Virus record (IMG/VR): IMGVR_UViG_3300038701_001167
Span: 1 to 64,000 of that record
DNA: 64,000 nt
Source of the DNA: a virus
Reading direction: 5' to 3' (one strand)
Shown here: one piece after another, positions 8,612 through 49,326 of the stretch
Numbering within the stretch: the stretch's first letter is position 1
Layout: the number at the start of each line of letters is the position of its first letter
Notes under the pieces: model-generated
Databases searched by the model: none
Told to the model about the DNA's origin: nothing
The model's input: the letters and a program-made list of their open reading frames with translations, nothing else
Position numbers and translations under genes: made by a program

Positions 8612-8804
8612 AGAGAGCACTTTCGTAACCGTCATTGCCTTTGACCACGTCTTCCTTGGTATAGACGTTACCGCACATCTCGACTTCATCTGGCCAATCA
8701 TCCATGACTGATTCACCAAGATAGGCGTAAAGTTTTCCATCTTTCCTGCGCTGAGCTGCGAGATCAAAACCAGCGAGAAAGTGTTTTTTCATTTCTTCAG
8801 TCAT
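8604..8804 (-). CDS. Small acidic protein, unknown
   Basis: 66 residues starting MTEEMKKHFLAGFDLAAQRR and ending GYESALYA. Its start overlaps the 3' end of RNAP1 by eight bases, so it is probably coupled to RNAP1 translation. The sequence reads like a compact alpha/beta protein; no family known to me. Confidence 0.6.
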   Translation of the reverse strand: MTEEMKKHFLAGFDLAAQRRKDGKLYAYLGESVMDDWPDEVEMCGNVYTKEDVVKGNDGYESALYA

Positions 8805-9645
8805 TGAGTGGTTCTCCTTCTGCGAATTCGATTACAGCTTTATTCCAGTCGTTACCTTGCGTAGTAACGTGATATCCCTGACAGTATGTCCGGCCACGCT
8901 TGTCGTACTTGTGAGTGAGCCAGAAGCGATTACCTGAGGCGATCAGTCCGTCGATCACATCTCGAGATGAAACATCATACTTCTTGAAGGCTTTCTGACG
9001 CTTCTTGAAGTCTTGGTAGAGTTCGTCCTTTTTCGGTTTGTCGAGGCGAGACCATTGGTTCTGTACGAAAGCCACCACATCTGGGTTCACAGACAAAGGG
9101 ATGCTGTTCATCCGGTTTATGTGATCGAGACAAATGTCTTCGTCGTGGTGGTTGTTCTTGAGTAAGAGTGAGCCAGGGATCGTCTGGTAACCAGTCTCCT
9201 TGTTGTTGGTGACTGGCTCAGGGTGCTCAATCATTGGCAGTGGATACTGGAACTGATCTAGTTGCTGCTGCTCCTCTTTCTGGATGTCGTGCTCGACGAT
9301 GAAGACCATCATCTGAGCACCGAAGTTTACAGCATCCACATCGACTGCCTGACAGAGCATGTCCGTACATTGCTGGACAGCTGAGGCTTCATCTGTGTCA
9401 GTGAAGTGGTGACGCAGAATGCCCACCAGAGTTACGATGTTGGCTCGCTTGCACAGCATCATGTGAGAGAGAAGTTGGATACCAAACTCGACTGGGAGAC
9501 CTAGTTCTTTGAGGGTTTCAGGATAGCCACGATCTTCACAAATCTGACGAAGGAAGGGCATCACTTGGTGCTTGGAGAAGAGACTTTCGAGCTCCTTCTG
9601 AGAGGAGAAATCCGCGGTATTTTGGGGGGTTTTACGGTCCTGCAT
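8797..9645 (-). CDS. Early RNA polymerase subunit RNAP1 (N4 gp15-like)
   Basis: 282 residues supplying the N-terminal and thumb-side part of the split T7-family RNA polymerase. The last 45 residues carry the DxxGR element as THKYDKRGRTYCQGY and then VIEFAEGEPLND. This matches the T7 region just before motif A, exactly where the N4 enzyme is split. With RNAP2 it would form the heterodimer that transcribes middle genes. A vRNAP-type hairpin promoter starts 146 nt upstream. In N4 the two subunit genes are neighbours; here five small genes lie between them. Confidence 0.88.
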   Translation of the reverse strand: MQDRKTPQNTADFSSQKELESLFSKHQVMPFLRQICEDRGYPETLKELGLPVEFGIQLLSHMMLCKRANIVTLVGILRHHFTDTDEASAVQQCTDMLCQAVDVDAVNFGAQMMVFIVEHDIQKEEQQQLDQFQYPLPMIEHPEPVTNNKETGYQTIPGSLLLKNNHHDEDICLDHINRMNSIPLSVNPDVVAFVQNQWSRLDKPKKDELYQDFKKRQKAFKKYDVSSRDVIDGLIASGNRFWLTHKYDKRGRTYCQGYHVTTQGNDWNKAVIEFAEGEPLND

Positions 9646-9789
9646 GAGTGCTCCAGTGTCTTAGATGTTCTTTAGCCATCTGAGGAGTTTTTTGAGTGAT
9701 TTAGGTTTTAGCCGGTCAACTCGAGAGTTGAACTTTCCAACTTGGAAAGACTGTCGAAGACAGCACAAAACAAGTATGGACAAACCAAG

Positions 9790-9810
9790 CCACTGCCTTC
9801 GTAGAAGGCA
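9790..9810 (-). promoter_or_regulatory. Candidate virion-RNAP promoter H1 (RNAP1 operon)
   Basis: On the plus (template) strand: CCACTG, then hairpin TGCCTTC-GTA-GAAGGCA (7-bp stem, 3-nt loop, 9794-9810). Putting the loop centre at -11 places template CC at +1/+2 (9791, 9790), as in N4 virion RNAP promoters, so the RNA would start GG. Same CCANTG...C-GTA layout as H2-H4. Confidence 0.75.
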
Positions 9811-9920
9811 CAAATACTATCTAAAGATACTTTTGTTGCTCAAGAGTATAGACTCTCTTGTCAACTCTTTCACCTAATGGCTACCTAAGGCATGAGTTGA
9901 AACTGCTTGGTGAAACTTAA

Positions 9921-9950
9921 AGTCCCACTCAGCTTGCGCTGAATGGGACT
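9921..9950 (-). terminator. Probable terminator after gene 9984-10391
   Basis: Stem AGTCCCA...TGGGACT with inner CAGC/GCTG and a short loop; on the minus strand it is followed by TTTAAGTTT. Separates the 9984 gene from the RNAP1 promoter region. Confidence 0.7.
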
Positions 9951-9983
9951 GAGTCTGTGAGAAGAGGGTTTTGTTGAGCTGAC

Positions 9984-10391
9984 TTAGGCTGCTTTCTTAG
10001 TGAAACCGAGGCGGCTCAGGTTGGAGAGATGTGGATTCCGATCTGACGGACCTTCTTCTTGTGCTGCCTCATCTACCCGACGAACCTGAATCTGCAGGGT
10101 TTCGATGATCTCTGTCTGACCCGGTTCCATACCGGCAATCAGTTTCTGCAGCTGGTCTAGCAGTTCGTTCTTGGCAATCGTCATGTCTCGATAGTCGCTG
10201 TCCTTATTAGGGACATTGGAAGGTTTCATGGTATCAATCGCCAGACCGAGAGGCAGGCTGATAAACACATCATCACCATTCGAGTCAGTCGAGGTGAAGC
10301 CAATGTTCAACCACGACTGTGTCTTCTCACGTTCCTGACCGTTGTTGTTGTTGGAGCGTGTGTTCTGTTCGTTTGTTTTGTTCCAAGCCAT
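9984..10391 (-). CDS. Early protein, unknown
   Basis: 135 residues from ATG 10391 (AGGAA nine bases upstream), beginning MAWNKTNEQNTRSNNNNGQE. The Asn/Gln-rich N-terminus is followed by a structured part (LNIGFTSTDSNGDDVFISLP) and a C-terminal segment with PSDRNPHLSNLSRLGF. No domain assigned. Candidate vRNAP promoter H2 starts 57 bases upstream, so it is expected to be an immediate-early gene. An in-frame extension to 10496 would run through the promoter hairpin and is rejected. Confidence 0.68.
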   Translation of the reverse strand: MAWNKTNEQNTRSNNNNGQEREKTQSWLNIGFTSTDSNGDDVFISLPLGLAIDTMKPSNVPNKDSDYRDMTIAKNELLDQLQKLIAGMEPGQTEIIETLQIQVRRVDEAAQEEGPSDRNPHLSNLSRLGFTKKAA

Positions 10392-10446
10392 GATGAGTTC
10401 CTTTTTCGTTGGCGTGATTGGAAGGGTTGACTGTATCCGACTACAA

Positions 10447-10467
10447 CCATTGGCATCGTAGATGCCA
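10447..10467 (-). promoter_or_regulatory. Candidate virion-RNAP promoter H2
   Basis: Template-strand CCATTG followed by TGGCATC-GTA-GATGCCA (7-bp stem, 10451-10467). Predicted start at 10448 with template CC, 57 bases before the ATG at 10391. Confidence 0.75.
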
Positions 10468-10496
10468 GTTTTGTAAAGGGTGAAATTGTCCTTCAC

Positions 10497-10648
10497 TCAA
10501 GAGTAATTAACTCCATAAAAACAATCTGTTAGGTTATCTGAGTGAGGAGTATCTTGGATTGTATCTAGGTGATTGTACCGAGGAAGTATGTAAGCTAGAC
10601 ACAACCTGCAAGAGCAAAACTACACCAGTTAATACAGTTACCCTTTAG
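10497..10648. other. Short noncoding stretch
   Basis: No ORF with a ribosome site on either strand; AT-rich, with imperfect repeats of TATCTnGG. Nothing further that I can identify. Confidence 0.4.
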
Positions 10649-10777
10649 TCAGTTTATGACCAAGAAGTAGAGACAGACCCAAGCACAGACAGTCGCCACG
10701 AAGGCGAATATGGTCTTGTCCTCGAGGTCGATCTGGTTGAGTTCGTCGATTAGAAAGTCAGTCAGTTTGGTGAGCAT
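10649..10777 (-). CDS. 42-residue single-span membrane protein
   Basis: Too short for usual ORF cut-offs. ATG 10777 has AAGGA seven bases upstream. The product begins MLTKLTDFLIDELNQIDLED and ends in a hydrophobic segment (IFAFVATVCAWVCLYFLVI) that should span the membrane with the acidic N-terminus outside it. Preceded by a CACACCA leader motif. Early phage membrane microproteins often act on the host envelope or on superinfection; no specific role can be read here. Confidence 0.65.
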   Translation of the reverse strand: MLTKLTDFLIDELNQIDLEDKTIFAFVATVCAWVCLYFLVIN

Positions 10778-10792
10778 GGCTCTATCCTTTCT

Positions 10793-10814
10793 GATTTGGT
10801 GTGGTGTGGTGTGA
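10793..10814 (-). repeat. CACACCA leader motif, triple unit
   Basis: Sense-strand reading TCACACCACACCACACCAAATC, 15 bases upstream of the ATG at 10777 and just before its AAGGA. This copy has three CACACCA units in tandem. Confidence 0.6.
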
Positions 10815-10815
10815 A

Positions 10816-10837
10816 GAGTGAGCCTTCGGGCTCACTC
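10816..10837 (-). terminator. Perfect TTCG hairpin at the end of gene 10832-11206
   Basis: GAGTGAGCC / GGCTCACTC, a 9-bp perfect stem on the plus strand with a TTCG loop, overlapping the stop codon. The T-run afterwards is poor (TTCACACC), so it may be a processing or stabilising hairpin rather than a full terminator. Confidence 0.6.
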
Positions 10838-11206
10838 AGCGTTGACGAGAGGATGAAGCTCGGCAGGCTTCATCACGCGGTTCATGAGATTCGCATCATA
10901 GAAGTCTTTCGCTTCCCTTAATCCACATCCTGTGATCTTACGAATAAGCTTGATCCTGTTGATAGGGCCAAATGTACCGTAGGTTAGGCCGTAGAGCTCT
11001 TCCAGTGAGATGATTGGGACCGGACGACTGTTCTCACGAACAAGCTCATCCAACTGCGCTTGTAGGTCTGTGATCTGTGTCTGTAAGGTACAAATCTGGT
11101 GATGTAGATCATCATTGTATTCAGCCAGACAGATGTTGCGTTGAGTGAGATTCTCGATCTGTTTGATCTGGTTCTCAATGATGACAGTCATGACGGATTT
11201 CTTCAT
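10832..11206 (-). CDS. Coiled-coil protein with L7/L12 C-terminal-like motif
   Basis: 124 residues. About 10-60 is a coiled coil (QIKQIENLTQRNICLAEYND then repeated LQ.QI heptads). Residues around 82-104, NRIKLIRKITGCGLREAKDF, closely resemble the C-terminal-domain helix of ribosomal protein L7/L12 (IKVIREITGLGLKEAKDLV type). L7/L12 CTD binds translation GTPases, so interference with or recruitment of host translation factors is conceivable; this is inference. ATG 11206 has AAGGA plus the shared CTGAACCA spacer. Transcribed from the promoter H3 unit. Confidence 0.7.
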   Translation of the reverse strand: MKKSVMTVIIENQIKQIENLTQRNICLAEYNDDLHHQICTLQTQITDLQAQLDELVRENSRPVPIISLEELYGLTYGTFGPINRIKLIRKITGCGLREAKDFYDANLMNRVMKPAELHPLVNAE

Positions 11207-11210
11207 TGGT

Positions 11211-11441
11211 TCAGTCCTTTCTAAGAAGGGTTTCCATTTCGTTACAGAAGCGAGATCGAGCTTCGATCACCTGTTCTGCTATGTGTTTGGGAACACGTTG
11301 GATGATGTCCTGATCAGAGTCAGCGATATCAACAGTCCCATCAGGATGCTCACCGAAGATCATCCAATGATTAAACATGGTTGTCTCTCCGGTGAGATAC
11401 TTGATCTTGTGTGGAGCTGGGTACTGAATGGGAAGCTGCAT
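11211..11441 (-). CDS. Small early protein, unknown
   Basis: 76 residues starting MQLPIQYPAPHKIKYLTGET. ATG 11441 is preferred because it has the same AAGGA-TCTGAACCA leader as its neighbours. A second in-frame start at 11378 (MFNHWMIFGEHPDG) has its own GGAG and could give a 55-residue form. The core GEHPDGTVDIADSDQDI suggests a small beta-rich fold. Unknown function. Confidence 0.6.
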   Translation of the reverse strand: MQLPIQYPAPHKIKYLTGETTMFNHWMIFGEHPDGTVDIADSDQDIIQRVPKHIAEQVIEARSRFCNEMETLLRKD

Positions 11442-11458
11442 TGGTTCAGATCCTTGGT

Positions 11459-11533
11459 TTACAGTGCTGAGAGGATGGGTGTGATGACAGCGAAGAGGAT
11501 CATCCAGAAGGCGCAAGTGATGTAAAGTTTCAT
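11459..11533 (-). CDS. 24-residue membrane micropeptide
   Basis: ATG 11533 follows AAAGACTGAACCA, the same initiation region as two neighbouring genes. The product (MKLYITCAFWMILFAVITPI then LSAL) is a single hydrophobic span with one basic residue near its N-terminus, and its stop is 18 bases before the next ATG. Missed by length cut-offs; the shared leader is the main evidence that it is translated. Confidence 0.5.
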   Translation of the reverse strand: MKLYITCAFWMILFAVITPILSAL

Positions 11534-11568
11534 TGGTTCAGTCTTTCTCTATCAGGTTGAAGTAAGAA

Positions 11569-11584
11569 CAGGCCTTATGGCCTG
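11569..11584 (-). terminator. Hairpin after gene 11604-11762
   Basis: CAGGCC / GGCCTG stem, 4-nt loop, followed on the minus strand by TTCTTACTT. Probably an attenuating terminator within the early operon. Confidence 0.55.
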
Positions 11585-11603
11585 CTCATGTTATGAGGTT
11601 CAA

Positions 11604-11762
11604 TCAGGCAGCCAGCCTGAGCTGTTCCTGAAGATCGAAGTATTGCTGAGTGAGTTGTTCAGCACGGTGATCACTGATGACCGGATTGCTGAGGTACGAG
11701 AGCAACGCAGCAGACTTGGCTTTGATCTGAGCTGCAGTTGTGTTGTTGCTACGTGTGGACAT
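11604..11762 (-). CDS. 52-residue early protein
   Basis: ATG 11762 with GGAGG five bases upstream, a very strong site. Begins MSTRSNNTTAAQIKAKSAAL, with a Ser/Thr/Asn-rich N-terminus and helical C-terminus ending QEQLRLAA. First gene of the H3 unit. An overlapping 62-residue frame in another register has no ribosome site. Unknown function. Confidence 0.65.
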   Translation of the reverse strand: MSTRSNNTTAAQIKAKSAALLSYLSNPVISDHRAEQLTQQYFDLQEQLRLAA

Positions 11763-11784
11763 GAGAGCCTCCATTGATTTGATT

Positions 11785-11803
11785 CCAATGGAGCCGTAGG
11801 CTC
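11785..11803 (-). promoter_or_regulatory. Candidate virion-RNAP promoter H3
   Basis: Template-strand CCAATG then GAGCC-GTA-GGCTC (5-bp stem, 11791-11803). Predicted start at 11786 with template CC, 24 bases before the ATG at 11762. The flank is nearly identical to H4. Confidence 0.75.
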
Positions 11804-12186
11804 TGCCTACCTAAAACATAGAGATCGCACTCCTGAAGCAACTGAGAGAGTCTCAGGTACAATTCAGGTATGCTCACACACAGGGAGTTACACGACTGTG
11901 TTCCTACTCAAGTTCAACTTCATATCTACTTTTGGAGATGTGTTGACAAAGAGAGTGTGACGTAGAGGAATGTTTAGGGTGATTGTAGTGGTTTAGGTGA
12001 GGGAAGTGAGTGTTTAGGAGATGAGACCCTTGAGATAGATGTTAGCTAGATTAGAGTGTTTTACAGCATTATTCTCCACCATTTACTCTATATGTTCGAA
12101 GATTCTTCGAATGGTTCAGACATAAGTGGGAGATTCTCCCATCTCTATCATCTCTATCAGAGAGAGTGTTGAGTGTTATTGTATTA
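11804..12186. other. Noncoding stretch with palindromes having 3-nt loops
   Basis: No credible gene. Contains CTGAGA-GAG-TCTCAG (11842-11856), TTCGAAG-ATT-CTTCGAA (12095-12111), GGGAG-ATT-CTCCC (12128-12140) and TCTCT-ATC-AGAGA (12151-12163). None has the CCANTG start element of promoters H1-H4. Possible operators, processing hairpins, or part of a terminal repeat. Confidence 0.5.
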
Positions 12187-12212
12187 GGCTCCCACCCCGA
12201 AGGATGAGAGCC
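12187..12212 (-). terminator. Hairpin after gene 12218-12583
   Basis: GGCTC...GAGCC stem with an inner wobble-containing helix closing on CCGAAGG; on the minus strand followed by TAATACAATAA. Plausible terminator with a weak T-run. Confidence 0.5.
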
Positions 12213-12217
12213 ATAGT

Positions 12218-12583
12218 TTATTCAGCAGCGATCTTGGTGACGTTGGTTGTGCCTTTGTATTCGGCATAGGCAGAACGGTAGCGAGAGAGGGAAGCCTCAT
12301 AGTGGGACTTGAGGCGAGGATTGCCATCGAGTTGTTTGTCGAGGTCTTCATAGAAGGCAGCGTCATCGACAGCCTTTTGGTGGAAGCGACGTTCGAGAGC
12401 ATCTTCTTTGTCAGCGATCATGCCGATAGCTGTGCGTTCACGGTAGTGCTCAGCGTGCATGGTGAGAGTGGATGCGTATGTTGCAGCAGCTGTAGCCACA
12501 GTCTCAAGAGCCATTGCTGATGAGGTGACAACACCAAGAGTGGAAGTAGCAGTGCGAGTAGCAGCGGTAAGTACGTTAGCCAT
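12218..12583 (-). CDS. Alanine/threonine-rich early protein
   Basis: 121 residues from ATG 12583, GGAG seven bases upstream. The N-terminal 45 residues are Ala/Thr/Val-rich (MANVLTAATRTATSTLGVVT), followed by a charged helical region (DKEDALERRFHQKAVDDAAF) and a basic C-terminus. The low-complexity start followed by a helical body recalls early inhibitor proteins, but I cannot assign a function. It is the first gene of the H4 promoter unit and would be among the first proteins made. Confidence 0.65.
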   Translation of the reverse strand: MANVLTAATRTATSTLGVVTSSAMALETVATAAATYASTLTMHAEHYRERTAIGMIADKEDALERRFHQKAVDDAAFYEDLDKQLDGNPRLKSHYEASLSRYRSAYAEYKGTTNVTKIAAE

Positions 12584-12618
12584 GAGTTAACTCCATTGAT
12601 TGATTGACGGTAGGTATA

Positions 12619-12636
12619 CCAATGGGGCCGTAGGCC
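12619..12636 (-). promoter_or_regulatory. Candidate virion-RNAP promoter H4
   Basis: Template-strand CCAATG then a G-rich arm, GGCC-GTA-GGCC (4-bp core stem, 12626-12636). Predicted start at 12620 with template CC, 37 bases before the ATG at 12583. Confidence 0.72.
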
Positions 12637-12791
12637 AGTATCTCACAGAGAACATACCGGGGGGGTATCTCTCCTAGTGTTAGTCGAGTGTTATAGTAGT
12701 ACAATCGGAAGTAACTATGAAAAATTCCCTATAGGCGGCTTACCTTAGGGAATCTCCATCTACGAACTTCACAAAAAATATGCTGAGAATT

Positions 12792-12971
12792 TTAGCTATC
12801 AGGGCCTCCGTGATCTCCACCTCTGATGCCTGAACTCTTACCGTAGGCAATCCGATATACTATCCAGGAACCAATGCCTAAGACGGCTGCAATCCAACCA
12901 ACAAACAAAGAACCAACACCCACAAGAACAGTGAGTGCAATGATCGACCAGACAAGATCTTTGGTGTTCAT
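12792..12971 (-). CDS. 59-residue membrane protein
   Basis: ATG 12971 with AAGGA eleven bases upstream. MNTKDLVWSIIALTVLVGVG starts a hydrophobic stretch that can form two short spans (about 8-24 and 27-44), followed by a Gly/His-rich tail (GIRGGDHGGPDS). Not detected at usual length limits. Leftmost-starting member of the leftward early region. Phage membrane protein of unknown role. Confidence 0.6.
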   Translation of the reverse strand: MNTKDLVWSIIALTVLVGVGSLFVGWIAAVLGIGSWIVYRIAYGKSSGIRGGDHGGPDS

Positions 12972-13027
12972 AGTGTAAGTTATCCTTTCATAAACAGCAC
13001 TAATTTGGTGAACCAGAAGTCAGTTTC

Positions 13028-13057
13028 TTGACTTACATACTCGCGCGTGGTTATACA
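13028..13057 (+). promoter_or_regulatory. Sigma70-like promoter for late genes
   Basis: TTGACT and TATACA separated by 18 bp, with a second TATAAT at 13060-13065. Faces the late genes, the first of which starts at 13252. Fits N4, where host RNA polymerase transcribes late genes. Confidence 0.65.
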
Positions 13058-13084
13058 GTTATAATCCCTATATAAACAGTTCCA

Positions 13085-13145
13085 GATAATAAGATCTTTC
13101 GAGGAGAAAGGGCGGAGCCCTTTGACGAAGGAAGATCTTATTATC
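13085..13145. repeat. 61-nt cruciform with perfect outer and inner arms
   Basis: Outer arms GATAATAAGATCTT / AAGATCTTATTATC match over all 14 bp. Inside is AAAGGGC-GGA-GCCCTTT (7 bp, 3-nt loop, 13107-13123) plus TCG/CGA. Could be a terminus structure, a bidirectional terminator, or a polymerase recognition hairpin; the GGA loop equals that of the N4 P2 promoter but no CC lies at the start position. Confidence 0.75.
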
Positions 13146-13251
13146 GTCTTATATTATATATAAGAGACCTAAGCCCAACCTAAAGGGTTCCTTACATCAA
13201 GTGCAAGCAGATAGGCGTCAAAGAGAAACAACTCTTTGAGGTTCTAAACAC

Positions 13252-13476
13252 ATGCTGACTGTAAAGATTAACACTGGGAAAAGTGTTCGCACGTTCCAGA
13301 ATGTATTAACCTTCATTGAAACCAAGGCGTTCATGCAGGTGATATGGGACGATGGACCCAACACACATCACTCACTTGTCCCGATCAATGACATCGCTGG
13401 AGTAGAGATCATTGATGACAACGAAGATATGCAAGGTGAAGAACTTGGTTCGACAGGGAAGGTGGTGTTTCAATGA
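13252..13476 (+). CDS. Small protein at head of late operon, unknown
   Basis: 74 residues, MLTVKINTGKSVRTFQNVLT onwards; beta-rich core and acidic tail (EIIDDNEDMQGEELGS). GAGGT lies nine bases upstream of the ATG. Overlaps the next gene by ATGA. Probably the first product of the late transcript. No family recognised. Confidence 0.65.
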   Translation: MLTVKINTGKSVRTFQNVLTFIETKAFMQVIWDDGPNTHHSLVPINDIAGVEIIDDNEDMQGEELGSTGKVVFQ

Positions 13477-39036: not shown

Positions 39037-42000
39037 ATGTCCGGCATCGATCTCAACTTTGGAAACCAACCCAAAGTGAACCAAACCAAATCAAATCAAA
39101 AGCAGGCACAGGTGGAAGACACCTCACTCGCCAAGAAGCTTCAGTTTGGTTCTCAGCAGGATCAGTGGGCTCTGGCTACAGCCATGCAGAATGGCAATGC
39201 CATTTCCCAAGATGAGTTCATGCGAGACATGACCAATGCCAGCGACACAGATATCGCTGCAAAATATGGCTTTGAGGTGGTTCAGAATCGTGCCGGATAC
39301 CTTCAACAGTATCGTGATCTGGAAGCCTTCAAGCAAAGCTCAGGTGAGCCAGTAGACATTGCAAACGATACCGCAGTGTCTGTTACCAAAGGAGCTATGA
39401 ACACAGCTGGAGCCATGGGATCGATCGCTGCCTCTGCATGGGATGCCGTAACAGCCGGTCCTCGTGCTCTGGGTGAGCAAATTCATGGCCAGGCTCAGAC
39501 ACCTCTGAGTGAGGTTGCTGCAGAAGGATTGAACTGGGCCAATGAAGCAGTAGACGGACTGAAGTCGGATCGGTCTGTTGAGATGCGGAACCAGTTTGCT
39601 TTGGAACAATCCCTGGATCAGCAAGATCGGGATGCAGAATTCGAAGCTGGCGAGACCAAAGGGTTCGTGGATCAGGCCATCACTGAAGCCAAGAAGTTTG
39701 GTGACACAATCGCAAACCTTGCTGACAATCCGTATACGGCAATGGAAACTGTTGCTGAAGGTATTGGCTCACTTGGCCCAATAGCAAAGACCATTCAAGG
39801 TCTGGCTCGTGCAAACACAGCTCGAAAGCTTGTTGCCGAAGGAATGACCAAAAAAGAAGCTCGTGATCTGATACAAAGGGATGCTGGTCAGGCACTGGTT
39901 CAAGAAGAAGCTCTTCGTCTGGTACCCACAGTTACTGCTCTCACTGAAGGTGGAAGTGCTGGTCTTCAGGCTCGTCAAGAAATTCTGGCCATGTCCGAAG
40001 AAGAGCTGATGCAGTCTCCTGAATATCAGAAGATGATTGAGGACGGGATGGATCCGGATCAGGCACGATCCAAACTCATCGAGATGGCAGGCCGCCCTGC
40101 AGAACTGACTGGTGCCACTCTCGGTTTGTTGACAGGTCGTATCAGCAGAGCGTTCGAAGCCTCTCCCGGTAAGGTTGGTTCCGGCGCTGGTGCAGGCAAG
40201 ACAGTGGCTCTGGAGACCGGTGAAGAAGCTCTACAAGAAGCCTCGAACCAAGCTGCCTCGAATGTGGGTGTGAATGCTGCAGGCTTTGAACGTGAGATCA
40301 CAGATGGACTTGGTGAAGCAGCTGCCATGGGTGCCGCAGGTGGATTGGGAACAGCCGGTGTCATGCAGGCGCCTGGAGCAGCAGCCACAGCCGTTGTTGA
40401 GACAGCCAAGGCCACAGGTCGAGCAGCAGAAGCCGGGTTCAAAGCTCGTATGAATTCTATCGAGCAGGCAACTGATGATGCCAGCCCAGTTGGTCAGAAA
40501 GCCGTTTCTGGAACCAGTGAGCAGATGCGCAAGGATGCAGCTGTGATCTCTGAAGTGGCAGCAAATGAAACCACACCAGAGCAAATCAAAGCACTTGATA
40601 CCAAAGTACAGGAAGCCCTGTATCTGCCAGATGAAGATGCTGACAGCTACATCGAGAGCTTGCCTGCTCTGGCTCAAGTGAAAGAGTCCACCGGGAAAGT
40701 CGATCGATACTCGCTCATCAACGAAGTCTCTCCGATCATCACCAATGAAGAAATCGCTCCGGTAGATCGTCTGGGAGCAGCTGTGCTTGTGATGGAGTCC
40801 TTCGATGCACTCCGGTCGCTGGACAATGATGAGAGCAATGCACTGGTTCAGTCATTGGAAGCTGGAGATCAGACTGGTTCTCGCTTTGGTCGACTAAAGA
40901 AAGACGTGAACAAGCTGACGTCTTCTCCGGCAGTGAAGCGTGCTGAAGAGATCATCCGTACTCTTGAGCCTGAGATGATCAATGCAGTGTTTCCTCTTAC
41001 TGAGAATGCTGATGCTGCAACTCTGCAGGCCTACCGTACAATCAGCCGGTACAATACTCTGGCCATCGATGAGAGCCAGTATGACATGGTTCTGGAACAG
41101 GTGAGTGAGAACGACGCTCTTCGAAAGGAGTTCACTGCAGGCAAAGAAGCTCGCAAGATCTTCGACGAGGCTGACAAAGCAAAAGCGTCTCTCTCAGAAG
41201 AGGTAGGTGGTTCCTACAACACCAAGTCCATGGTGCGTGAACAGATCTTGTCTACCGGCAACAAGAACAATGACATGCCATCGATTGTGGAACATTACCG
41301 CAATGTGATGGATAACATGGCCATTGGTCGTAAAGAAGAAGCAGCCGCAGCACTGGTTGAATTGCGTGAGTTTGCGCAGTCCCAAGTGAACAAGACCGTT
41401 GCATTCAACACAGCTGCAGATACTGGCGTGACCAATGCAGCAGACGGTATTGGCTATGAAGCTTACGGACCGTTCAAGAATTACTTCCGCAAAGAGGGCG
41501 GAGCCTGGTTCAACAAGAACTCTCCCAACTCTGTTGCTCTGGCTCGTGATGTCCATGTGGACACAACAGCAGTGGCAAACACATACAACACTCTGGCTGA
41601 GATTTATCCCGAACTGGTGAGCAACGGTGAGACTCGGATTGATGTTCCTGAGCTGAGTCAGATAATCACCGAATCCAAATCTGCACCGATTGAGACCGAT
41701 CCAGTTGAGCCTGAAAAGGCAGAACGTCGTATTCGTAAAGACGCAAAGCCGGATGCTTCTTTGACAGATGCAGTCACACCGGAAGGGCAGGCTGTTAAAG
41801 ATGCTGTGACGAAAAAGGCAAAAGCTCAGAAGCGTACCACAGCAAAGCAAACCACACCCAAACCAACCAAGTCAGAACCAGTCAAAGCAGAGGAGCCGGT
41901 CGAAAGCACCACGAAGGTGGAGGCAGAGCCGGAACCTGAAGTGATTGCTGAAGACAAGGCGGATGTGGAAGAGTTGATCTCTGAAGCAGACACCATTGCC

Positions 42001-45000
42001 GAAGTCGAAGAGACACCTGAGACAGAACAAAAGTCTCTGGCAGATGTGTTCCCGAACCTCATCAAAGAGAACGGAAACAACTGGTTCCTCAAGACCTTCA
42101 GCCGTCGTGAAAATGGCTCCAAGTTTCTAGATCAAGACAGCCCTATGGAAACCCTGTTGCGTGAAGTGACCGGGCTCAATGCAGAGCAGTCCAATGAACT
42201 GAAGACCCTCAAAGATGTTCTGGCTCCGAAGCTCCAGGAGTATCTGGATGGGATGGCCAAAGACGGATTGCTCAATCCGAAGATGGGCTGGCTCAAGAGC
42301 CTGATGGAAGGAACCAAGGACGTTCTGGGATACAAGAACGCTTCCTCACTCAACTTCCGCAGCACAGTCGATGGGAAAGGTCAGTTTGATCCGAAAGTGA
42401 TCGAAGCCTTCACCATGGCTGTTGGGGAATGGATGCTGAAATCTGAAGCGCGTTTGCCGCGGCAACTGGACAATGAAGAGATCAATAAGCGGTTCGGCCG
42501 CAACCGTGATCATGCCGTCACTGACTTTGAACGTCAGCTGGTGAACCTTGGTGGTATCCAGCTTCAGTCAGTGATCGATGACATCAGTGGTTCCGCCATG
42601 AAACTGATGGGCGTCACAGCTGACAAGTCTCAGCCGGTGAAGTTCTCTCAAGGTATCTTCCGGGGTATGGCTGCCAACGTGCTGGAAGCTCTGGCTGATA
42701 GTGAAGGTGCCGACTGGATTGGGATCACCCAGTATGACTATGACGTGAATGGCTCCAAGCGGACCTACACCTCGATCCAACTCAACAAGGATGTGGATGC
42801 GGTCAAAGACTTCACTCAAGCACTAAAAGGCCGACAGGACCTGTTTGAAAAGGTGTTCTTGGAAGCGCCAGAAGCAGATTACTTCTTTGAGCCAATTCAA
42901 GAGACACCTCGCTCTGTCACACGTCAGCGGTTCAATGAAGTTCAGCCGATTGCCGAGAAGGTTATCAAACGGCTCCAAAGCACACCAAACCGCTTTGTAG
43001 CACCGATGATGGAATTTCGTAGTGCTTTGGGAGATGACGTGTTCAAGCGTCTGGCAGGGTTCCGTGACTTCGATCCGAAGACCACAAATGAAGCGCATGC
43101 TACCAGCATTCAGTCCAAGAACCGGTCCATTGAACGGGCTCTGGATGGGATCGATCAGCACTATGCTCGTGCAGAAGCCTATGCGGCAGAGCAGGGCAAG
43201 ACAGCTGAGCAGACTGATCTGTTCTTCAAGTGGAACATTTCGAGCGTGGGACGTCTTCAGCAGGAAGGGTACATCACACCTCAGGGTGACAAGATTGCCC
43301 GTGAAATGATCTCTTCCACCATGTCGACACTGGATCTCAACAATGAGAACCATGTGAAAGCGATCTGGCTCGCTGCAGCACAGGCATTTGATATCAAGCC
43401 TGGTATCGAGAAGCAGTCACATGAAAAGTCTGTTCGGGACATTCAGGAACTCTTCAACGGTGATCTGAAGCCAGCCATGGAGCTGGTCAAAGACTGGATG
43501 ATCTCTGGTGAGATGACAGATGCCGATGCACTGGAAGCAGCTTTGATCAACTCTGGTGCAGACATCTCTATGAAATCTGTTCACGCTCTGTTGACCGTGG
43601 CCCAGATGGAATACGTGCTTGAAAATGACCCAGAAGGTGCAGGAATTTTCCAAACATCTTTGGCTCTTGAAGCGGACGGCAAGACTGATGGTCCGATTAA
43701 TGCGATGATCAACGTGGGCTTTGGACAATTCACACCCCATCAAATCAAAGTAATGGCCAAGGGTGGTCTGATCGTCTCTGGTTCAGAGATGAGCCTGAAC
43801 CGGTACATCGAAGGCGATGCAGAACACACAGGGGACAAAGAAGACCTCTACGAAGTGGCTGCACAGAGCCTGGAACGGAACCTGGGATCGTACACAGCTG
43901 AGAATGCTCCGGTGATCTTTGACCTGATGGACACATTCCTGAAAGGTTTTTCCTTCAAAGACGGCAAGCTCGACATTGGCCGGAACCTGATCAAGAACCC
44001 TCTGACGGTGTTGCTCTATGGTTCGGGCAAAGCAGGTATCGCATCCAAGCTGGCGTCTGCCATCAAAGACGAACTGCATGCGTTGATGAGTGACATCGCT
44101 GAGTCCGGTAAGCCGTGGCATCAGCATCCGAAGTTCATTGAGAACCCGGCTCTGGTTGATACCCTGAAAGCTGTGTTTGGGAACCAGATCATTTCACTGC
44201 TGGAAAACCCAATCAAATCCAAGATCGAGGGACCTCTTGAGAAAGCTCTGAGTGGTCAGATCGACGAGACGATAGGGGAAGCCCTTGTAGAAGCGATCGA
44301 CGAAGCCACAGGTGGCCTGCGTGAAGCCATGGAGCTTGTTCGGACTGCAACCCAGATCCAAGGAATTGCTTTCGAGGATGCCTATGACAAGGCCATCGAG
44401 CGTATCCGGACCGAGAAAGGTCTCAAGAAGAGCCAGCTGAGTGAGAAGGATTACGAGACAGCTTTCGTGGAAGCATCTCAAGTGGCTCCGATCTACAACA
44501 ACGGTGCTCAGGAATTCCACATCGTTGCATCTGAGAAATACTCCAGCGAGAACCAGATCTCATCTTCGTTGCGGGAACGGTTGTCCAGTGGTGCCACTAT
44601 TCCGAAGCCTGGTGCCGTGGGTGTGAAGGGTCAGCCTTATCTGGTGATTGGTACTGGTGATGGTAGGATGATCATCAACATCCTTGAAGCCGGCGATGCA
44701 GATATGGACCGGACACTGATGGTGTTCGATGGTGTGGAAATTGCTCTCGACAACGTCTTCAGTGCATCCCGTCAGATCAACCAAGCTGTCTGGAAAGGAT
44801 GGCAGGAAGAGAGCGTGACCACATTGGTTCACGATGGCTATCAGAACTTCCTGCGTCAGTTCAAACCCGATGAGTTGGGTGAGAAAGGCAAAGAAGCGCT
44901 CAACAAGCTGGCCAAGTCCAACAAGACTGGTGTGGACAATCTGATCTCTGGTGTTGGTTCCCAACTGCAAGCTAAGTCGGCTCAGAACCTGGCTCGTAAG

Positions 45001-48000
45001 AAAGCCCTGTCCAAAGTCCAAGCCTACATCGATCACATGGCCGGTGCCGAAGCGCCTCATATGAATGAAGGTGAAGTGGTTGAAAGTTCTGTTCCGTTTG
45101 ATCCTGAGCTGATCGCTGAGAAGCTGAACCAGTTCTATCAAGAAGCTTTGGAAGAAGCTCGGGAAGGTATTCGAACAGAGCGTCGTGCAGCTACTATTCA
45201 GGCGCCGAGTGCCAAGCTGATGAACCAGCTCAAGAAGATCGGTGAGCAGGTAGAAGGAACAGAAGCGGTCAAGCTTACTGGTTCCCAACTGACACAAGAC
45301 GTCTTCAAGATGAGCAACGATGCAAGTCGTGAGCAGAACTCTGTGTTCTGGAAGCTGCTGTCTGAGCAAGACAGTCTTGCAGATTACACCTTCTATGTCG
45401 GTGAACAGGCTGACCTGGAAGACATCCGGTCTGATCTGGGAATTGACTCCTCGGTGAGCATCAAAGCCGGTGCCATGTATCCGAAGAACAAAGTAGTGTT
45501 CATTGCCAATGCGTCTCCGGAAACACTGCTGCATGAAGCTCTGCACACACAGACGGCTCGGACATTGGTCGATCACTATGCGGACCCGGAGAACAGTGCT
45601 GACTATGTGGCAGATGCCATTGGCCGGTTGGAGAACCTCAAAGACTTCTTCATGAACATGAGCTTCACCAAAGACACGGCTGAAGATCGGGCAGCCAATC
45701 TGTTGAAGGAACAGCTCACAGAGAAGGCGAATGATCCAGCTGCTGCAATGTCAGAGTTCATCTCTTGGACTTTGTCGAACCAGAAGCTGATCAAGATTGG
45801 TCAGGACACCAAGGTCTACTCTCCACTGCAGAATGTCGGCCGCAAGGTACTGGCTCTGTTGGGTCGTCTATTGGGGATCAAAACTCGACCGGGCAAAACC
45901 CTGTTTGAGAAGGTCCGTTTCAACAGCGAGATCATCATCAAGAGCCAAGACAAAGGCAGCAACAATCTCGATCTGCTCAAGCAAGAAGCCGAAACACAAG
46001 CTGTGTTTGAACAGGCTTACGGAGAAGATACCAATCTGGATCGTCTGGAGAGCAAGTTCCAGCGTCGGATCCAGTCTGCATTGGAAGCGGCTGTCCGTCG
46101 TGTAGATGATCCGATGAGCACAGAGAGCGATAGCTCCGTGGTCAAGCGGGCAGGGGACCTCACTGCTATGGCCGAGAAAGCGGCTGAGCAAGTCGAGAGC
46201 TTTGGGTTTGCAATGAACCAGCGTGAGAAGGCTGTATTCATGAGCATTCACACAGGCATGATGACGGATTTTGAAAGCAATCCGGCTGCACAGCGCAAAG
46301 CCTATGAGCTCTACTCTCACATGCTGAAGAATGCCAAGCCCGGATCACTGAGTGTGTTGGCCGGCAAAGGTGGATTGCGACAAACCAGTGAAGGTCAGAC
46401 AGACCTGCTGGCAACCTTTGTGGCATTGGGCATGGTTCATCCTGGCTTCAAAGCTGAGCTTGCTGAGATGGACGGACCCAAGAACATGGTCGAGTATGAG
46501 CGCAGTGTAGATGGCACCCTGAGATGGTTGGCCAACAGCTCGATCAACTATCTGACTCAGTCTGCCATTGCGATGAAGAAGTCCGGCAAGAAGATGGACA
46601 CTCAACTTCTGGCTCTGGAAAACGCTCTGTCGACCTATCAAGTAGAGCGCCGTCATACAGCTGACCGGATTGCGATGAAGCCTCAGGAAGTGCTCGATCA
46701 GAAACTGTCTGTTCTTCTGGATCGTGGTTCCAAGAAGGCAGTGGCTTTCCTACGGTCCAAACAAAAGCCCACAGATGGTGTGCTCAAGTCTGGTGCTTTC
46801 GTCAGTGCTGAACTGATTGCAGCTATGGGATCGAAAGAGAGCATGGAAGATGTGGGCAATGGCCTGACCTACATGCTTAATGAGCTTGAGCCCTTCAAAG
46901 CTCTGCAAGAAATCTGGACCGATCTGCAGGGTGTGACCAAATCCAATGCAGCTGTGATGGATCTGGTCAACAAGGTGAAGAGCCATGTCGATGCCATGCG
47001 TCAGGATTACCGGGAGAAGATCCCTCAAATCCTGTCCGAGAAGTTCACTCGCAAGATCACCCGTGATGAGTGGACACAGATGTTCGAGGGCATCTCTCAG
47101 ACCGATCTGACCACATTGGGTAACAAGCAGGCTCTGACCCTGCTGAAAGACCTGACCCAACTGCCTGTGAAGATCAAACGAGCAGAGGCACTGGTTTCCG
47201 AATTGGCAAGCAACAACGGGACCCTTTACAAGAAGAAAGCCAACGCACTTGCACACTGGATGGTCAACAAGGAAGCCATCTCAACCAATCTGCTACGTAA
47301 TGCAGAAGCCATCGCCAATCTCTACGGTGAAGGTGTTCAGGTTGGTTCTGAAATCACACCCGATCTGATCGAAGCCATTGACGATCTGACAACCCTCTAT
47401 GCGTTGGACAAGGTGAGCCAAGAGACCAAGGACACATTGCAGGACTTGGCCAATACCGCAGAGGAAGGCCTGAAGTTCATCATTGGGTATCAGGCTTCTA
47501 CCAAAGGTCTGGAGCTACAGCGTATTGCTGATGGAGAAGATGGGGCTGTGTCTCGGATCAACGGCTGGAAAGGCTATGCTCCTGTGACGGCTGCTGCTGG
47601 CAACTCGTTGGTTGTTCGAGACGACGTAGACTTCAAAGAGATGGTGAAACTCGGTTACGAACGTGTTGGTGACTACGAAGGAGATGCTCAGGAGAACTAC
47701 CGTGGCAGCCGTGGATATTACCAGTCCACAGTGGGTGGTCGGTCTGCATATCGTCAGGGTGTAGCTCAGACTGTTCATGCTACGTTCCAAGGTGTTGATC
47801 CTCGAACTGGTGTGTCTCGGACAGGTGAGATGGCAGGGTTCATCTCCGGTCGGAAAGCTGAACTGGCAAAGAGAGCCAAGAAGCGAGTGAACAACGATCT
47901 GGCACCGGGCAATGGTGAAGTCATGGTTCCTGTCTATGGCGCCAATGGAGACATCACCGGGTATGAGCTGACCATGGACCCCAAGCGTCGGGAAGCGTTG

Positions 48001-49326
48001 CAGGAAGACAAGCACATGGCTCGGATGCTCGGTGCCTGGTCTGGCCGTATCGTGGAAGAAACCATGTCGGATCGCTACAACAAGACCTTGGTTCAAACCC
48101 TGAAAGCTCAGTGGGATGAAGCAAGCCCTGAAGAGCGTCGGACCCAGTTCACCAATGTGGCGGATCCCAAGCACAAAGATGCTGTCATTCGAGATGCTTG
48201 GAACACCATGGGTTTCGGGATCAAAGATGCTGCTCGTGATGTGTTCAATGAGAGTGATACTCTCATGGTTCGCAAAGATCTGGTGAATGATGCACTGGGC
48301 TTCCACCAAGCGTCTGTCCGGGATGCCTTCACAGGAACGTCTCGTTGGTCTCCTGAGACACAGCAAGCTTTGGTGACGGCTGCTACAGCTGTCATGGGCA
48401 AGGATGCCTATAAGTACATGGTCAAAGCTGAAGACGGAATTGGTGATCTGGTGTCCTATGCCAAGACCACAATCGTGGTTCGATCGATGACTGTGATCTG
48501 GGAGAACTTGCTGTCCAACAACCTGCACCTGCTGACATGGGGTGTAGGACCGGTAGAGCTGGTCAAGGCACAGAGAGCCAAGTTCATTGAGATCAATCAG
48601 TATGTAAAGAACCAGGAGCGTATTCTGGAACTGAACGCTGAACTGGCAGCCAACATCGAAAATGCAAGCAAAGCTCGTCGGATCACTGCTGAGTTGCGAA
48701 TGCTCGATGATGCCAATCAGAAGCTGAGCATTCGTCCTCTGCTGGAAGCCGGTGAATTCTCAACAGTCTCTGAGAGCCTCACTGAAGCCGATCAGGCCAT
48801 TCGGGAAGGGAAGCTCAGTGACTTCTTTGAGAAGGCTGCTGACAGGCTGCCTGGTGGCGTGCAGACAGCATTCAAGAACTTTGCCATCACCAAAGACACT
48901 GCATTGTTCCAAGGTCTCAACCGGGCTGTCCAGTATGGGGACTTTGTGTCCAAGGCTGTGCTCTACGATCACCTGACAAAAGTGAAAGGCAAGACCGAAG
49001 CTGAAGCGATGGATGTGATCAAGGAAGAGTTCGTGAACTATAACCGCCTGTCTGGTCGAGATCGGGATTACCTGGAAAGCACAGGCATGCTCTGGTTCAT
49101 GAACTATAAGATCCGGATCATGAAGATCATGGCTCGGATGGTACGTGAACGGCCAGCCTCCGCTCTGTTCTATGCTGGTGGGGTAGGTCCGATGGCAGAC
49201 ATTGACACAGTTGTAACTGGTTCAGGTCTGGGGGCTTATCTCGACAATCGCCTCGGATACGCGATTGGGCCTGAAATGGGTGTAAACGGGATCTTCATGA
49301 ACCCGTGGAATAGCTTGGTGAACTGA
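39037..49326 (+). CDS. Virion RNA polymerase (N4 gp50-like) with embedded zincin domain
   Basis: 3,429 residues, packaged and injected to transcribe early genes. The polymerase core lies centrally: motif A ADGKTDGP (D1547), motif B R1649-x3-K1653-x7-Y1661-G (as R666/K670/Y678 of the N4 mini-vRNAP), motif C MVFDGVEI (D1898). N-terminal 900 residues are helical with a KPTKSEPVKAEEPVE linker. A separate HEALH at H2166-H2170, SEFISWTLSN (E2240) and LLGRLLGIKTRPGKTLFEKV look like a gluzincin peptidase domain. The C-terminus carries MARMVRERPASALFYAGG. CACACCA-like DNA motifs occur in several linkers. Ribosome site is weak, preceded by GAAGTGGAACAATA. Confidence 0.93.
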   Translation: MSGIDLNFGNQPKVNQTKSNQKQAQVEDTSLAKKLQFGSQQDQWALATAMQNGNAISQDEFMRDMTNASDTDIAAKYGFEVVQNRAGYLQQYRDLEAFKQSSGEPVDIANDTAVSVTKGAMNTAGAMGSIAASAWDAVTAGPRALGEQIHGQAQTPLSEVAAEGLNWANEAVDGLKSDRSVEMRNQFALEQSLDQQDRDAEFEAGETKGFVDQAITEAKKFGDTIANLADNPYTAMETVAEGIGSLGPIAKTIQGLARANTARKLVAEGMTKKEARDLIQRDAGQALVQEEALRLVPTVTALTEGGSAGLQARQEILAMSEEELMQSPEYQKMIEDGMDPDQARSKLIEMAGRPAELTGATLGLLTGRISRAFEASPGKVGSGAGAGKTVALETGEEALQEASNQAASNVGVNAAGFEREITDGLGEAAAMGAAGGLGTAGVMQAPGAAATAVVETAKATGRAAEAGFKARMNSIEQATDDASPVGQKAVSGTSEQMRKDAAVISEVAANETTPEQIKALDTKVQEALYLPDEDADSYIESLPALAQVKESTGKVDRYSLINEVSPIITNEEIAPVDRLGAAVLVMESFDALRSLDNDESNALVQSLEAGDQTGSRFGRLKKDVNKLTSSPAVKRAEEIIRTLEPEMINAVFPLTENADAATLQAYRTISRYNTLAIDESQYDMVLEQVSENDALRKEFTAGKEARKIFDEADKAKASLSEEVGGSYNTKSMVREQILSTGNKNNDMPSIVEHYRNVMDNMAIGRKEEAAAALVELREFAQSQVNKTVAFNTAADTGVTNAADGIGYEAYGPFKNYFRKEGGAWFNKNSPNSVALARDVHVDTTAVANTYNTLAEIYPELVSNGETRIDVPELSQIITESKSAPIETDPVEPEKAERRIRKDAKPDASLTDAVTPEGQAVKDAVTKKAKAQKRTTAKQTTPKPTKSEPVKAEEPVESTTKVEAEPEPEVIAEDKADVEELISEADTIAEVEETPETEQKSLADVFPNLIKENGNNWFLKTFSRRENGSKFLDQDSPMETLLREVTGLNAEQSNELKTLKDVLAPKLQEYLDGMAKDGLLNPKMGWLKSLMEGTKDVLGYKNASSLNFRSTVDGKGQFDPKVIEAFTMAVGEWMLKSEARLPRQLDNEEINKRFGRNRDHAVTDFERQLVNLGGIQLQSVIDDISGSAMKLMGVTADKSQPVKFSQGIFRGMAANVLEALADSEGADWIGITQYDYDVNGSKRTYTSIQLNKDVDAVKDFTQALKGRQDLFEKVFLEAPEADYFFEPIQETPRSVTRQRFNEVQPIAEKVIKRLQSTPNRFVAPMMEFRSALGDDVFKRLAGFRDFDPKTTNEAHATSIQSKNRSIERALDGIDQHYARAEAYAAEQGKTAEQTDLFFKWNISSVGRLQQEGYITPQGDKIAREMISSTMSTLDLNNENHVKAIWLAAAQAFDIKPGIEKQSHEKSVRDIQELFNGDLKPAMELVKDWMISGEMTDADALEAALINSGADISMKSVHALLTVAQMEYVLENDPEGAGIFQTSLALEADGKTDGPINAMINVGFGQFTPHQIKVMAKGGLIVSGSEMSLNRYIEGDAEHTGDKEDLYEVAAQSLERNLGSYTAENAPVIFDLMDTFLKGFSFKDGKLDIGRNLIKNPLTVLLYGSGKAGIASKLASAIKDELHALMSDIAESGKPWHQHPKFIENPALVDTLKAVFGNQIISLLENPIKSKIEGPLEKALSGQIDETIGEALVEAIDEATGGLREAMELVRTATQIQGIAFEDAYDKAIERIRTEKGLKKSQLSEKDYETAFVEASQVAPIYNNGAQEFHIVASEKYSSENQISSSLRERLSSGATIPKPGAVGVKGQPYLVIGTGDGRMIINILEAGDADMDRTLMVFDGVEIALDNVFSASRQINQAVWKGWQEESVTTLVHDGYQNFLRQFKPDELGEKGKEALNKLAKSNKTGVDNLISGVGSQLQAKSAQNLARKKALSKVQAYIDHMAGAEAPHMNEGEVVESSVPFDPELIAEKLNQFYQEALEEAREGIRTERRAATIQAPSAKLMNQLKKIGEQVEGTEAVKLTGSQLTQDVFKMSNDASREQNSVFWKLLSEQDSLADYTFYVGEQADLEDIRSDLGIDSSVSIKAGAMYPKNKVVFIANASPETLLHEALHTQTARTLVDHYADPENSADYVADAIGRLENLKDFFMNMSFTKDTAEDRAANLLKEQLTEKANDPAAAMSEFISWTLSNQKLIKIGQDTKVYSPLQNVGRKVLALLGRLLGIKTRPGKTLFEKVRFNSEIIIKSQDKGSNNLDLLKQEAETQAVFEQAYGEDTNLDRLESKFQRRIQSALEAAVRRVDDPMSTESDSSVVKRAGDLTAMAEKAAEQVESFGFAMNQREKAVFMSIHTGMMTDFESNPAAQRKAYELYSHMLKNAKPGSLSVLAGKGGLRQTSEGQTDLLATFVALGMVHPGFKAELAEMDGPKNMVEYERSVDGTLRWLANSSINYLTQSAIAMKKSGKKMDTQLLALENALSTYQVERRHTADRIAMKPQEVLDQKLSVLLDRGSKKAVAFLRSKQKPTDGVLKSGAFVSAELIAAMGSKESMEDVGNGLTYMLNELEPFKALQEIWTDLQGVTKSNAAVMDLVNKVKSHVDAMRQDYREKIPQILSEKFTRKITRDEWTQMFEGISQTDLTTLGNKQALTLLKDLTQLPVKIKRAEALVSELASNNGTLYKKKANALAHWMVNKEAISTNLLRNAEAIANLYGEGVQVGSEITPDLIEAIDDLTTLYALDKVSQETKDTLQDLANTAEEGLKFIIGYQASTKGLELQRIADGEDGAVSRINGWKGYAPVTAAAGNSLVVRDDVDFKEMVKLGYERVGDYEGDAQENYRGSRGYYQSTVGGRSAYRQGVAQTVHATFQGVDPRTGVSRTGEMAGFISGRKAELAKRAKKRVNNDLAPGNGEVMVPVYGANGDITGYELTMDPKRREALQEDKHMARMLGAWSGRIVEETMSDRYNKTLVQTLKAQWDEASPEERRTQFTNVADPKHKDAVIRDAWNTMGFGIKDAARDVFNESDTLMVRKDLVNDALGFHQASVRDAFTGTSRWSPETQQALVTAATAVMGKDAYKYMVKAEDGIGDLVSYAKTTIVVRSMTVIWENLLSNNLHLLTWGVGPVELVKAQRAKFIEINQYVKNQERILELNAELAANIENASKARRITAELRMLDDANQKLSIRPLLEAGEFSTVSESLTEADQAIREGKLSDFFEKAADRLPGGVQTAFKNFAITKDTALFQGLNRAVQYGDFVSKAVLYDHLTKVKGKTEAEAMDVIKEEFVNYNRLSGRDRDYLESTGMLWFMNYKIRIMKIMARMVRERPASALFYAGGVGPMADIDTVVTGSGLGAYLDNRLGYAIGPEMGVNGIFMNPWNSLVN

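Follow-up and report, generated by a model that had tools for sequence, protein, structure and literature searches.

The virion RNA polymerase (vRNAP) of phage N4 is the standard hairpin-reading polymerase, and its rules (a 3-nt loop, a central purine and -8G) derive from this one phage. According to PMC4496689, a closing G:C pair and the 5' G and 3' A of the loop are needed for extrusion and stability of the N4 hairpin. In the same paper, N4 vRNAP recognises A or G at -11, G at -10, G at -8 and C at +1. The contacts described are bonds from Lys114 and Arg119 to -10G and -11G, stacking of Trp129 on -11, and contacts of Asp901 with -9C/-10G and of Arg904 with -8G (PMC4496689). These residue numbers are those of the mini-vRNAP, and the residues were confirmed at these numbers in the N4 record. 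Hairpins predicted in other N4-like phages have been described on the N4 model, as having -11G or a purine at the loop centre (PMC3715699, PMC6027278). Here, we analysed four hairpins with a GTA loop in a stretch of 64,000 nucleotides (the window), which is part of the 72,475-bp (72.5-kb) IMG/VR virus record IMGVR_UViG_3300038701_001167. We concluded with high confidence that the four hairpins are early promoters of the injected vRNAP and represent a diverged branch of the promoter code, matched by the loss of Arg904 (Ser1850 in this phage). The original prediction had proposed a diverged vRNAP promoter family with a co-varied contact residue, and this was the reading favoured by the evidence.

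The family Schitoviridae is defined by a vRNAP of about 3,500 aa, three RNA polymerase genes and a genome of 59-80 kb (PMC7650795). This phage has an N4-type vRNAP, RNAP1 and RNAP2 (in two pieces) in 72,475 bp. No word beginning with "promoter" occurs in the main text of PMC7650795. In the literature searched (partial coverage, without supplementary tables), no report of pyrimidine-centred or tetraloop vRNAP promoters was found.

Four GTA hairpins and the N4 promoter rules

The four elements were as follows.

9790..9810, minus strand: predicted vRNAP promoter; template hairpin on the plus strand, 7-bp stem, GTA loop centred at 9802, CC at +1/+2, predicted start 9791, RNA leftward
10447..10467, minus strand: predicted vRNAP promoter; 7-bp stem, GTA loop centred at 10459, predicted start 10448, RNA leftward
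11785..11803, minus strand: predicted vRNAP promoter; 5-bp stem, GTA loop centred at 11797, predicted start 11786, RNA leftward
12619..12636, minus strand: predicted vRNAP promoter; 4-bp stem (the weakest), GTA loop centred at 12631, predicted start 12620, RNA leftward

All four hairpins were found where they had been placed (9790, 10447, 11785 and 12619). Stems of 4-7 bp and a constant GTA loop had been claimed; the stems were 7, 7, 5 and 4 bp, and the loop was GTA in every case. Each hairpin preceded a leftward early gene, also as proposed. At all four sites, the plus strand read CCANTG, the remaining stem and then the GTA loop. When the loop centre was set at -11, the predicted C at +1 and +2, A at -1 and T at -3 held in all four, together with G at -4. 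C at -9, G at -10, T at -11, A at -12 and G at -13 were also common to all four, and the -8 base was T, T, C and C. The description of the hairpins as near-identical did not hold, since the stems differ in sequence and only CCANTG and C-GTA-G are common. This meant that complementarity, not sequence, is what the stems have in common.

The hairpins were compared with N4 P1-P3. As in N4, they lay on the template strand with a 3-nt loop, and the C-G closing pair with loop 5' G and 3' A was present in 4/4. The stems fell in the N4 range of about 5-7 bp, with the fourth one short (4 bp). C stood at +1 in 4/4, 11 nt from the loop centre, C occupied +1/+2 at the same distance as in N4, and one site lay upstream of RNAP1. 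The N4-like G at -10 and A at -12 next to a non-purine T at -11 had been pointed out before, and this was confirmed in 4/4. However, where N4 has A or G at -11 and G at -8, this phage has T in all four at -11 and T/T/C/C at -8. The original prediction placed the departure at -11 alone; that part stood, but -8 departs as well. The phage also has four sites against three in N4, one of them with a 4-bp stem, and its vRNAP lacks Arg904 and has Tyr for Trp129. Because the hairpins depart from the strict N4 rules while being otherwise N4-like, they were called variant. All four agreed with the hairpin definition that we used for Schitoviridae (CC, 9-10 nt, C-GN(1-2)A-G, a stem of at least 4 bp, template strand, before early genes), with a spacing of 9. 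The four predicted hairpins are very probably vRNAP promoters.

Two other described phages were similar. Klebsiella phage KP8, with putative promoters P1-P4 (PMC6950046), likewise has four hairpins with a CC start, with P4 a short distance ahead of the RNAP1 match at 6263. It differs in its GGA loops, its -8G and its Arg904. In the case of Pseudomonas phage LUZ7, three early hairpins of 4-5 bp with a 3-nt loop were predicted, and the N4 contacts to -8G and -11G were invoked (PMC3715699). In its record, the scan gave GTA loops (797, 3669 and 3701) and one GAA loop (86), among which the three hairpins of the paper may lie, and its CC spacing differs from that of this phage.

The virion RNA polymerase and the promoter bases

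The polymerase gene was identified by sequence comparison with N4.

39037..49326, plus strand: virion RNA polymerase, 3,429 aa, no cysteine, N4-type

It was 28% identical to the N4 mini-vRNAP along the whole length of the latter. A tblastn search with a 2,821-aa part of the vRNAP matched 372 phage records, each at less than 60% identity, and many of the 60 matches listed carry a virion RNA polymerase annotation. The loop-binding residues were compared with those of N4, as had been suggested. Trp129 corresponded to Tyr1099, Asp901 to Glu1847 and Arg904 to Ser1850 in all four MAFFT modes, which were run on 48 of the 55 alignment rows (all but LUZ7, Pollock, V13, DFL12, L157, L103 and L152). On this alignment, Trp129 to Tyr1099 is a conservative change. 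Arg119 was replaced, by Leu in the four MAFFT modes or by Ser in the 55-row alignment, so that its exact partner was unsure, and the position of Lys114 was unstable.

We classified the promoter loops of the 55 vRNAP-aligned genomes (a few near-duplicates included) by the majority of sites in the 8 kb before RNAP1; 16 of the 50 genomes with sites were classed on a single site. Purine-centred triloops were found in 26 of the 55, with one further tie (L157, GAA and GTTA). GCA was the majority loop in 8 genomes, GTA in 6 (this phage, LUZ7, L107, L114, L131 and L134) and a tetraloop in 9. L166 was classed as GCA, with one TC site, within 8 kb; a GAA site lay further off. GTA loops numbered eight in L131, three in L134, two in L107 and three in L211 (from GTDB), and there were at least two in L146 (IMG/VR). 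These five genomes resemble this phage in carrying at least two GTA loops each, but they are distant from it, and L131 has TC rather than CC at +2/+1 in seven of its eight sites. Tetraloops were found in Ea9-2 (GTAA, GGAA), in EaP8 (GTAA) and in the rhizobial phages X2_28B, RHEph16 and I1_6 (GTAA, GCAA). Sisters on the vRNAP tree often differed in their loops: ort11 has GAA and X2_28B GTAA, L136 has GCA and L174 GTGA, and Zuri and Holyagarpour have GCA while their sister CRC2 has GGA. The loops differ by lineage, being GGA/GAA, GCA, GTA or a GNNA tetraloop, and other phages, too, have a non-purine at -11.

Two of these genomes are described here in their own right. L131 (IMGVR_UViG_3300043409_000785) has its eight template-strand GTA hairpins in the 7 kb before RNAP1, seven with a TC and one with a CC start. 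This is the highest number of sites among the 55 genomes, and its -8 position takes every base. L174 (IMGVR_UViG_3300025875_000016) has six GTGA tetraloop hairpins on the same plan.

An association between vRNAP and hairpin was observed across the family. Every alignable vRNAP column was tested against each promoter trait in 45 genomes, with Fisher p-values that ignore descent. These were the 55 genomes less L103, L152, Holyagarpour, Pollock and LUZ7 (the last two too distant) and the five genomes with no sites. For -8G, column 904 ranked first of 1,058 columns (p 7.0e-7). By majority, all 24 genomes with Arg904 had -8G and none lacked it; with another residue, 7 had -8G and 14 did not. Column 904 remained first of 1,047 without the N4 clade, first of 1,055 without this phage, and first with "all sites G" or with strict sites only. 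For -11 purine, tested in the 35 triloop genomes, columns 126, 116, 119, 129 and 114 ranked 3, 7, 9, 21 and 28 of 1,070. Columns 110-130, the -11 recognition element, ranked high as a block (Mann-Whitney p 4e-5, with neighbouring columns not independent). The signal was weaker without the N4 clade, where column 119 ranked 26 and column 129 ranked 40 of 1,056. Column 901 showed no strong association, at ranks 314 (-8) and 542 (-11); the bases that it contacts, -9 C and -10 G, were fixed by the selection of sites. These comparisons suggested that vRNAP co-varies with the promoter at -8 and, less certainly, at -11, where the family-wide association is suggestive only. The co-variation proposed in the original prediction was clearest at -8 and Arg904, which it had not named.

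We rejected an aromatic residue at column 129 as a rule for purine -11, since W, F or Y also occurs there in several GTA genomes. The column most associated with tetraloops was 896, which lies next to the specificity-loop contacts and carries Ser in 9/9 tetraloop genomes vs 5/36 of the others.

Several results weigh against the reading of a diverged code matched by the polymerase. Two of the four N4 base contacts (-11 purine and -8G) are missing. The 12619 stem has just 4 bp, and on its own it folded hardly any better than shuffled sequence (z -0.93, 35/200 shuffles equally good), while the 9790, 10447 and 11785 hairpins gave z of -4.6, -6.1 and -2.2. No sites were found in 5/55 genomes even under looser rules, although two of these, V13 and DFL12, have early regions of just 1.9 kb and 3.8 kb, which gives the absence little weight. 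Of 80 IMG/VR loci (the best 80 of 126 with RNAP1), 27 lacked a CC site at spacing 9 with at least 4 bp of stem, and several of these carry sites at spacing 10. The vRNAP sits on a long branch, with at most about 28-29% identity to any of the 54 other rows. The residue matches consequently depend on the alignment, and Arg119 and Lys114 are not surely matched. Pairwise BLAST put Thr opposite Trp129, yet it gave Glu for Asp901 and Ser for Arg904. As for the association, it is confounded by descent. Seven of the 31 -8G genomes lack Arg904, column 904 ranked only 59 for -8C, and it dropped to 6 of 1,063 when Pollock, LUZ7 and the duplicates were added. In addition, -5G, a base with no known contact, gave column 660 as its best at p 9.1e-7; such a p-value is not rare and proves little alone. 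A tree-respecting test of independent pairs gave three supported and no opposed pairs, which was not significant.

The strongest rival accepts the hairpins as vRNAP promoters and takes the -8 association as shared descent only. We consider it possible but unlikely. The independent-pair tests were underpowered, and columns 805, 626, 750 and 430 were strongly associated with -8G too, which together with column 660 agrees with descent. However, the top column is the known -8G contact, with or without the N4 clade or this phage, and column 904 fell to ranks 27 to 733 for traits at -7, -6 and -5. That the top column had already been named by the N4 structure is the strength of the -8 result.

If the hairpins are early promoters of a matching vRNAP, N4 suggests how they may work. 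Gyrase supercoiling would extrude the short template-strand hairpin as the first DNA enters the cell, and the C-G closing pair and the loop G and A would stabilise it. vRNAP would bind the hairpin and initiate at the template CC, 11 nt away from the loop centre, and GG-initiated leftward RNAs would be produced for RNAP1 and three other early genes. Ser1850 may lift the demand at -8, and Tyr1099 may stack on the loop T.

In the family as a whole, polymerase and hairpin promoter plausibly form a diversifying lock and key, a wider proposal that we favour with less confidence. The loops would be GNA, with any middle base, or GNNA (GTAA, GGAA, GCAA, GTGA, GACA, GTCA), the spacing would be 9 or 10, and the specificity-loop Arg would fix -8G wherever present. 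The pairs of different lineages, this phage included, would not cross-talk. From the survey, it seems that most lineages share the C-G..A frame and the start C and that the remainder drifts with the polymerase. A 2023 paper on N4-like viruses reported no covariance partner of vRNAP among the hallmark genes (PMC10654107); the partner may be promoter DNA. Co-evolution of promoter and polymerase thereby becomes testable base by base, and the loops offer a set of possibly orthogonal single-strand promoters.

Strand, spacing and chance level of the hairpins

Early regions were scanned in 25 named phages (N4 included), one IMG/VR contig and eight loci on GTDB contigs. The 80 IMG/VR loci were reduced to 76 by removing the near-duplicates L103, L119, L126 and L165. 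In these, the 7 kb upstream of RNAP1 was counted, and CCC counted at both spacings 9 and 10. The scan recovered three template-strand sites in N4, which we take to be P1-P3. It also recovered four in KP8, which are the promoters in Table 1 of PMC6950046. Sites were found in 5/8 GTDB loci (L211 with its GTA loops) and none in the other 3/8.

In the 76 loci, C-GN(1-2)A-G hairpins with a stem of at least 5 bp numbered 166 on the template strand vs 54 on the other strand upstream of RNAP1, and 38 vs 62 downstream. With CC at spacing 9, the ratio of template to other strand was 86:2 upstream and 0:5 downstream. A lesser CC peak at spacing 10 gave 44 vs 4 upstream. When CC-N8-C-GNA-G was taken without selection for a stem, two populations appeared on the template strand (stem 1-3, 143; stem 4, 8; stem 5-8, 75) and one on the other (stem 1-3, 100; stem 4, 4; stem 5, 1). 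The version with a four-base loop, also without selection, had stems of at least 5 bp in 11 template vs 1 other-strand cases. Four control loop patterns gave stems of at least 4 bp at 23/514 template and 26/557 other-strand places.

These counts bear on the next rival, in which the inverted repeats are not extruded but stay double-stranded and serve as operators, either for a repressor or for a different polymerase (RNAP1/2 or that of the host). The sites are indeed palindromic and located before early genes. However, the four stems differ in sequence yet stay complementary, only one of the strands has a constant loop G and A and a constant CC, and the template strand and the CC spacing are maintained across the 76 relatives. 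We therefore regard operators as very unlikely. An even less probable rival has the hairpins acting in RNA, as terminators or leader structures of the leftward transcripts. They are short GC-rich intergenic stem-loops, and a terminator-like structure lies nearby at 9921-9950. However, 0/4 hairpins were called terminator-like, the loop has its G..A form on the template strand and a transcript would contain its complement, and the predicted starts lie downstream of the hairpin.

For the promoters, a search of the full genome had been proposed, and it revealed no further CC-spaced C-GTA-G hairpin of at least 4 bp in the 72,475-bp record. CC with C(GNA)G and a stem of at least 4 bp occurred five times in the record, always on the plus strand: the four GTA hairpins, all inside the 3-kb early region, and one 4-bp GCA hairpin at 64096. 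The pattern CCANTGNNNNCGTA matched the window four times; 100 shuffles averaged 0.31 matches, and 0/100 reached 4. For region 9646-13252 on the plus strand, 2,000 shuffles averaged 0.007 sites, with a maximum of 1. Chance palindromes are hardly credible: a 4-bp site is unremarkable alone, but 0/300 dinucleotide shuffles of the record contained four GTA sites and the relatives share the arrangement.

With no stem required, CCN8CGNAG occurred 35 times on both strands of the record. The other 30 have stems of 1-3 bp, and three of them are short-stem GTA cases, at 10978 (3 bp), 58570 and 67225 (2 bp each). The one at 10978, on the plus strand, is a fifth CC-N8-C-GTA-G; it lies within the early open reading frame (ORF) 10832-11206 and is perhaps a chance match, perhaps a weak site.

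Some stretches were close to the window or were set aside. The close relatives of the window were L009, a contig with a 98% vRNAP fragment, and L011, with an RNAP1 match at 47%, GGA loops and a different CC spacing. Seven IMG/VR stretches (L012-L018) came from a DNA pattern scan for the 11785/12619 sequence. The stretches themselves encoded no match to the RNAP1 or vRNAP of the window at E 0.01 and were thus taken as chance matches.

Early genes and layout of the record

The features around the hairpins were as follows, with leader lengths counted from the predicted starts.

8797..9645, minus strand: RNAP1, N4 gp15-like middle RNA polymerase subunit, 282 aa (PHROG 2166, E 3.4e-93); leader from 9791, 146 nt
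9921..9950, minus strand: terminator-like stem-loop by pattern match, after the 135-aa gene and before the 9790 hairpin
9984..10391, minus strand: early gene after the 10447 hairpin, 135 aa (PHROG 4099, function unknown); leader 57 nt
11604..11762, minus strand: small early ORF after the 11785 hairpin, 52 aa, GGAGG ahead of ATG; leader 24 nt
12218..12583, minus strand: early gene after the 12619 hairpin, 121 aa, no PHROG match; leader 37 nt

The pattern match at 9921-9950 would end the unit begun at 10448; four such terminator-like matches were found in the region vs 2.8 expected. A hydrophobic 59-aa leftward ORF (12792-12971, minus strand) lies upstream of the outermost hairpin, so that none of the four predicted promoters would account for it. 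In the divergent intergenic region at 13085-13145, a long imperfect inverted repeat is centred on a 7-bp C-GGA-G hairpin (13107-13123) with no CC at promoter spacing.

A 125-base exact direct repeat was found close to both ends of the record (4-128 and 72348-72472). Assemblers leave such a repeat on circle closure, which suggests a circularised assembly with arbitrary ends. The record is probably complete but permuted, and the leftward genes may continue across its end.

The RNAP2 gene, on the minus strand, was split into 7062-7565 (positions 1-140 of one PHROG) and 5406-6194 (positions 141-401 of the same PHROG). Between the two pieces, a match to the group I intron model RF00028 was found at 6258-7081 (42.6 bits, gathering threshold 50, E 2.3e-8), and it contains an endonuclease VII/HNH-like ORF at 6340-6936. 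Judged from these matches, a self-splicing intron probably interrupts this early RNA polymerase gene.

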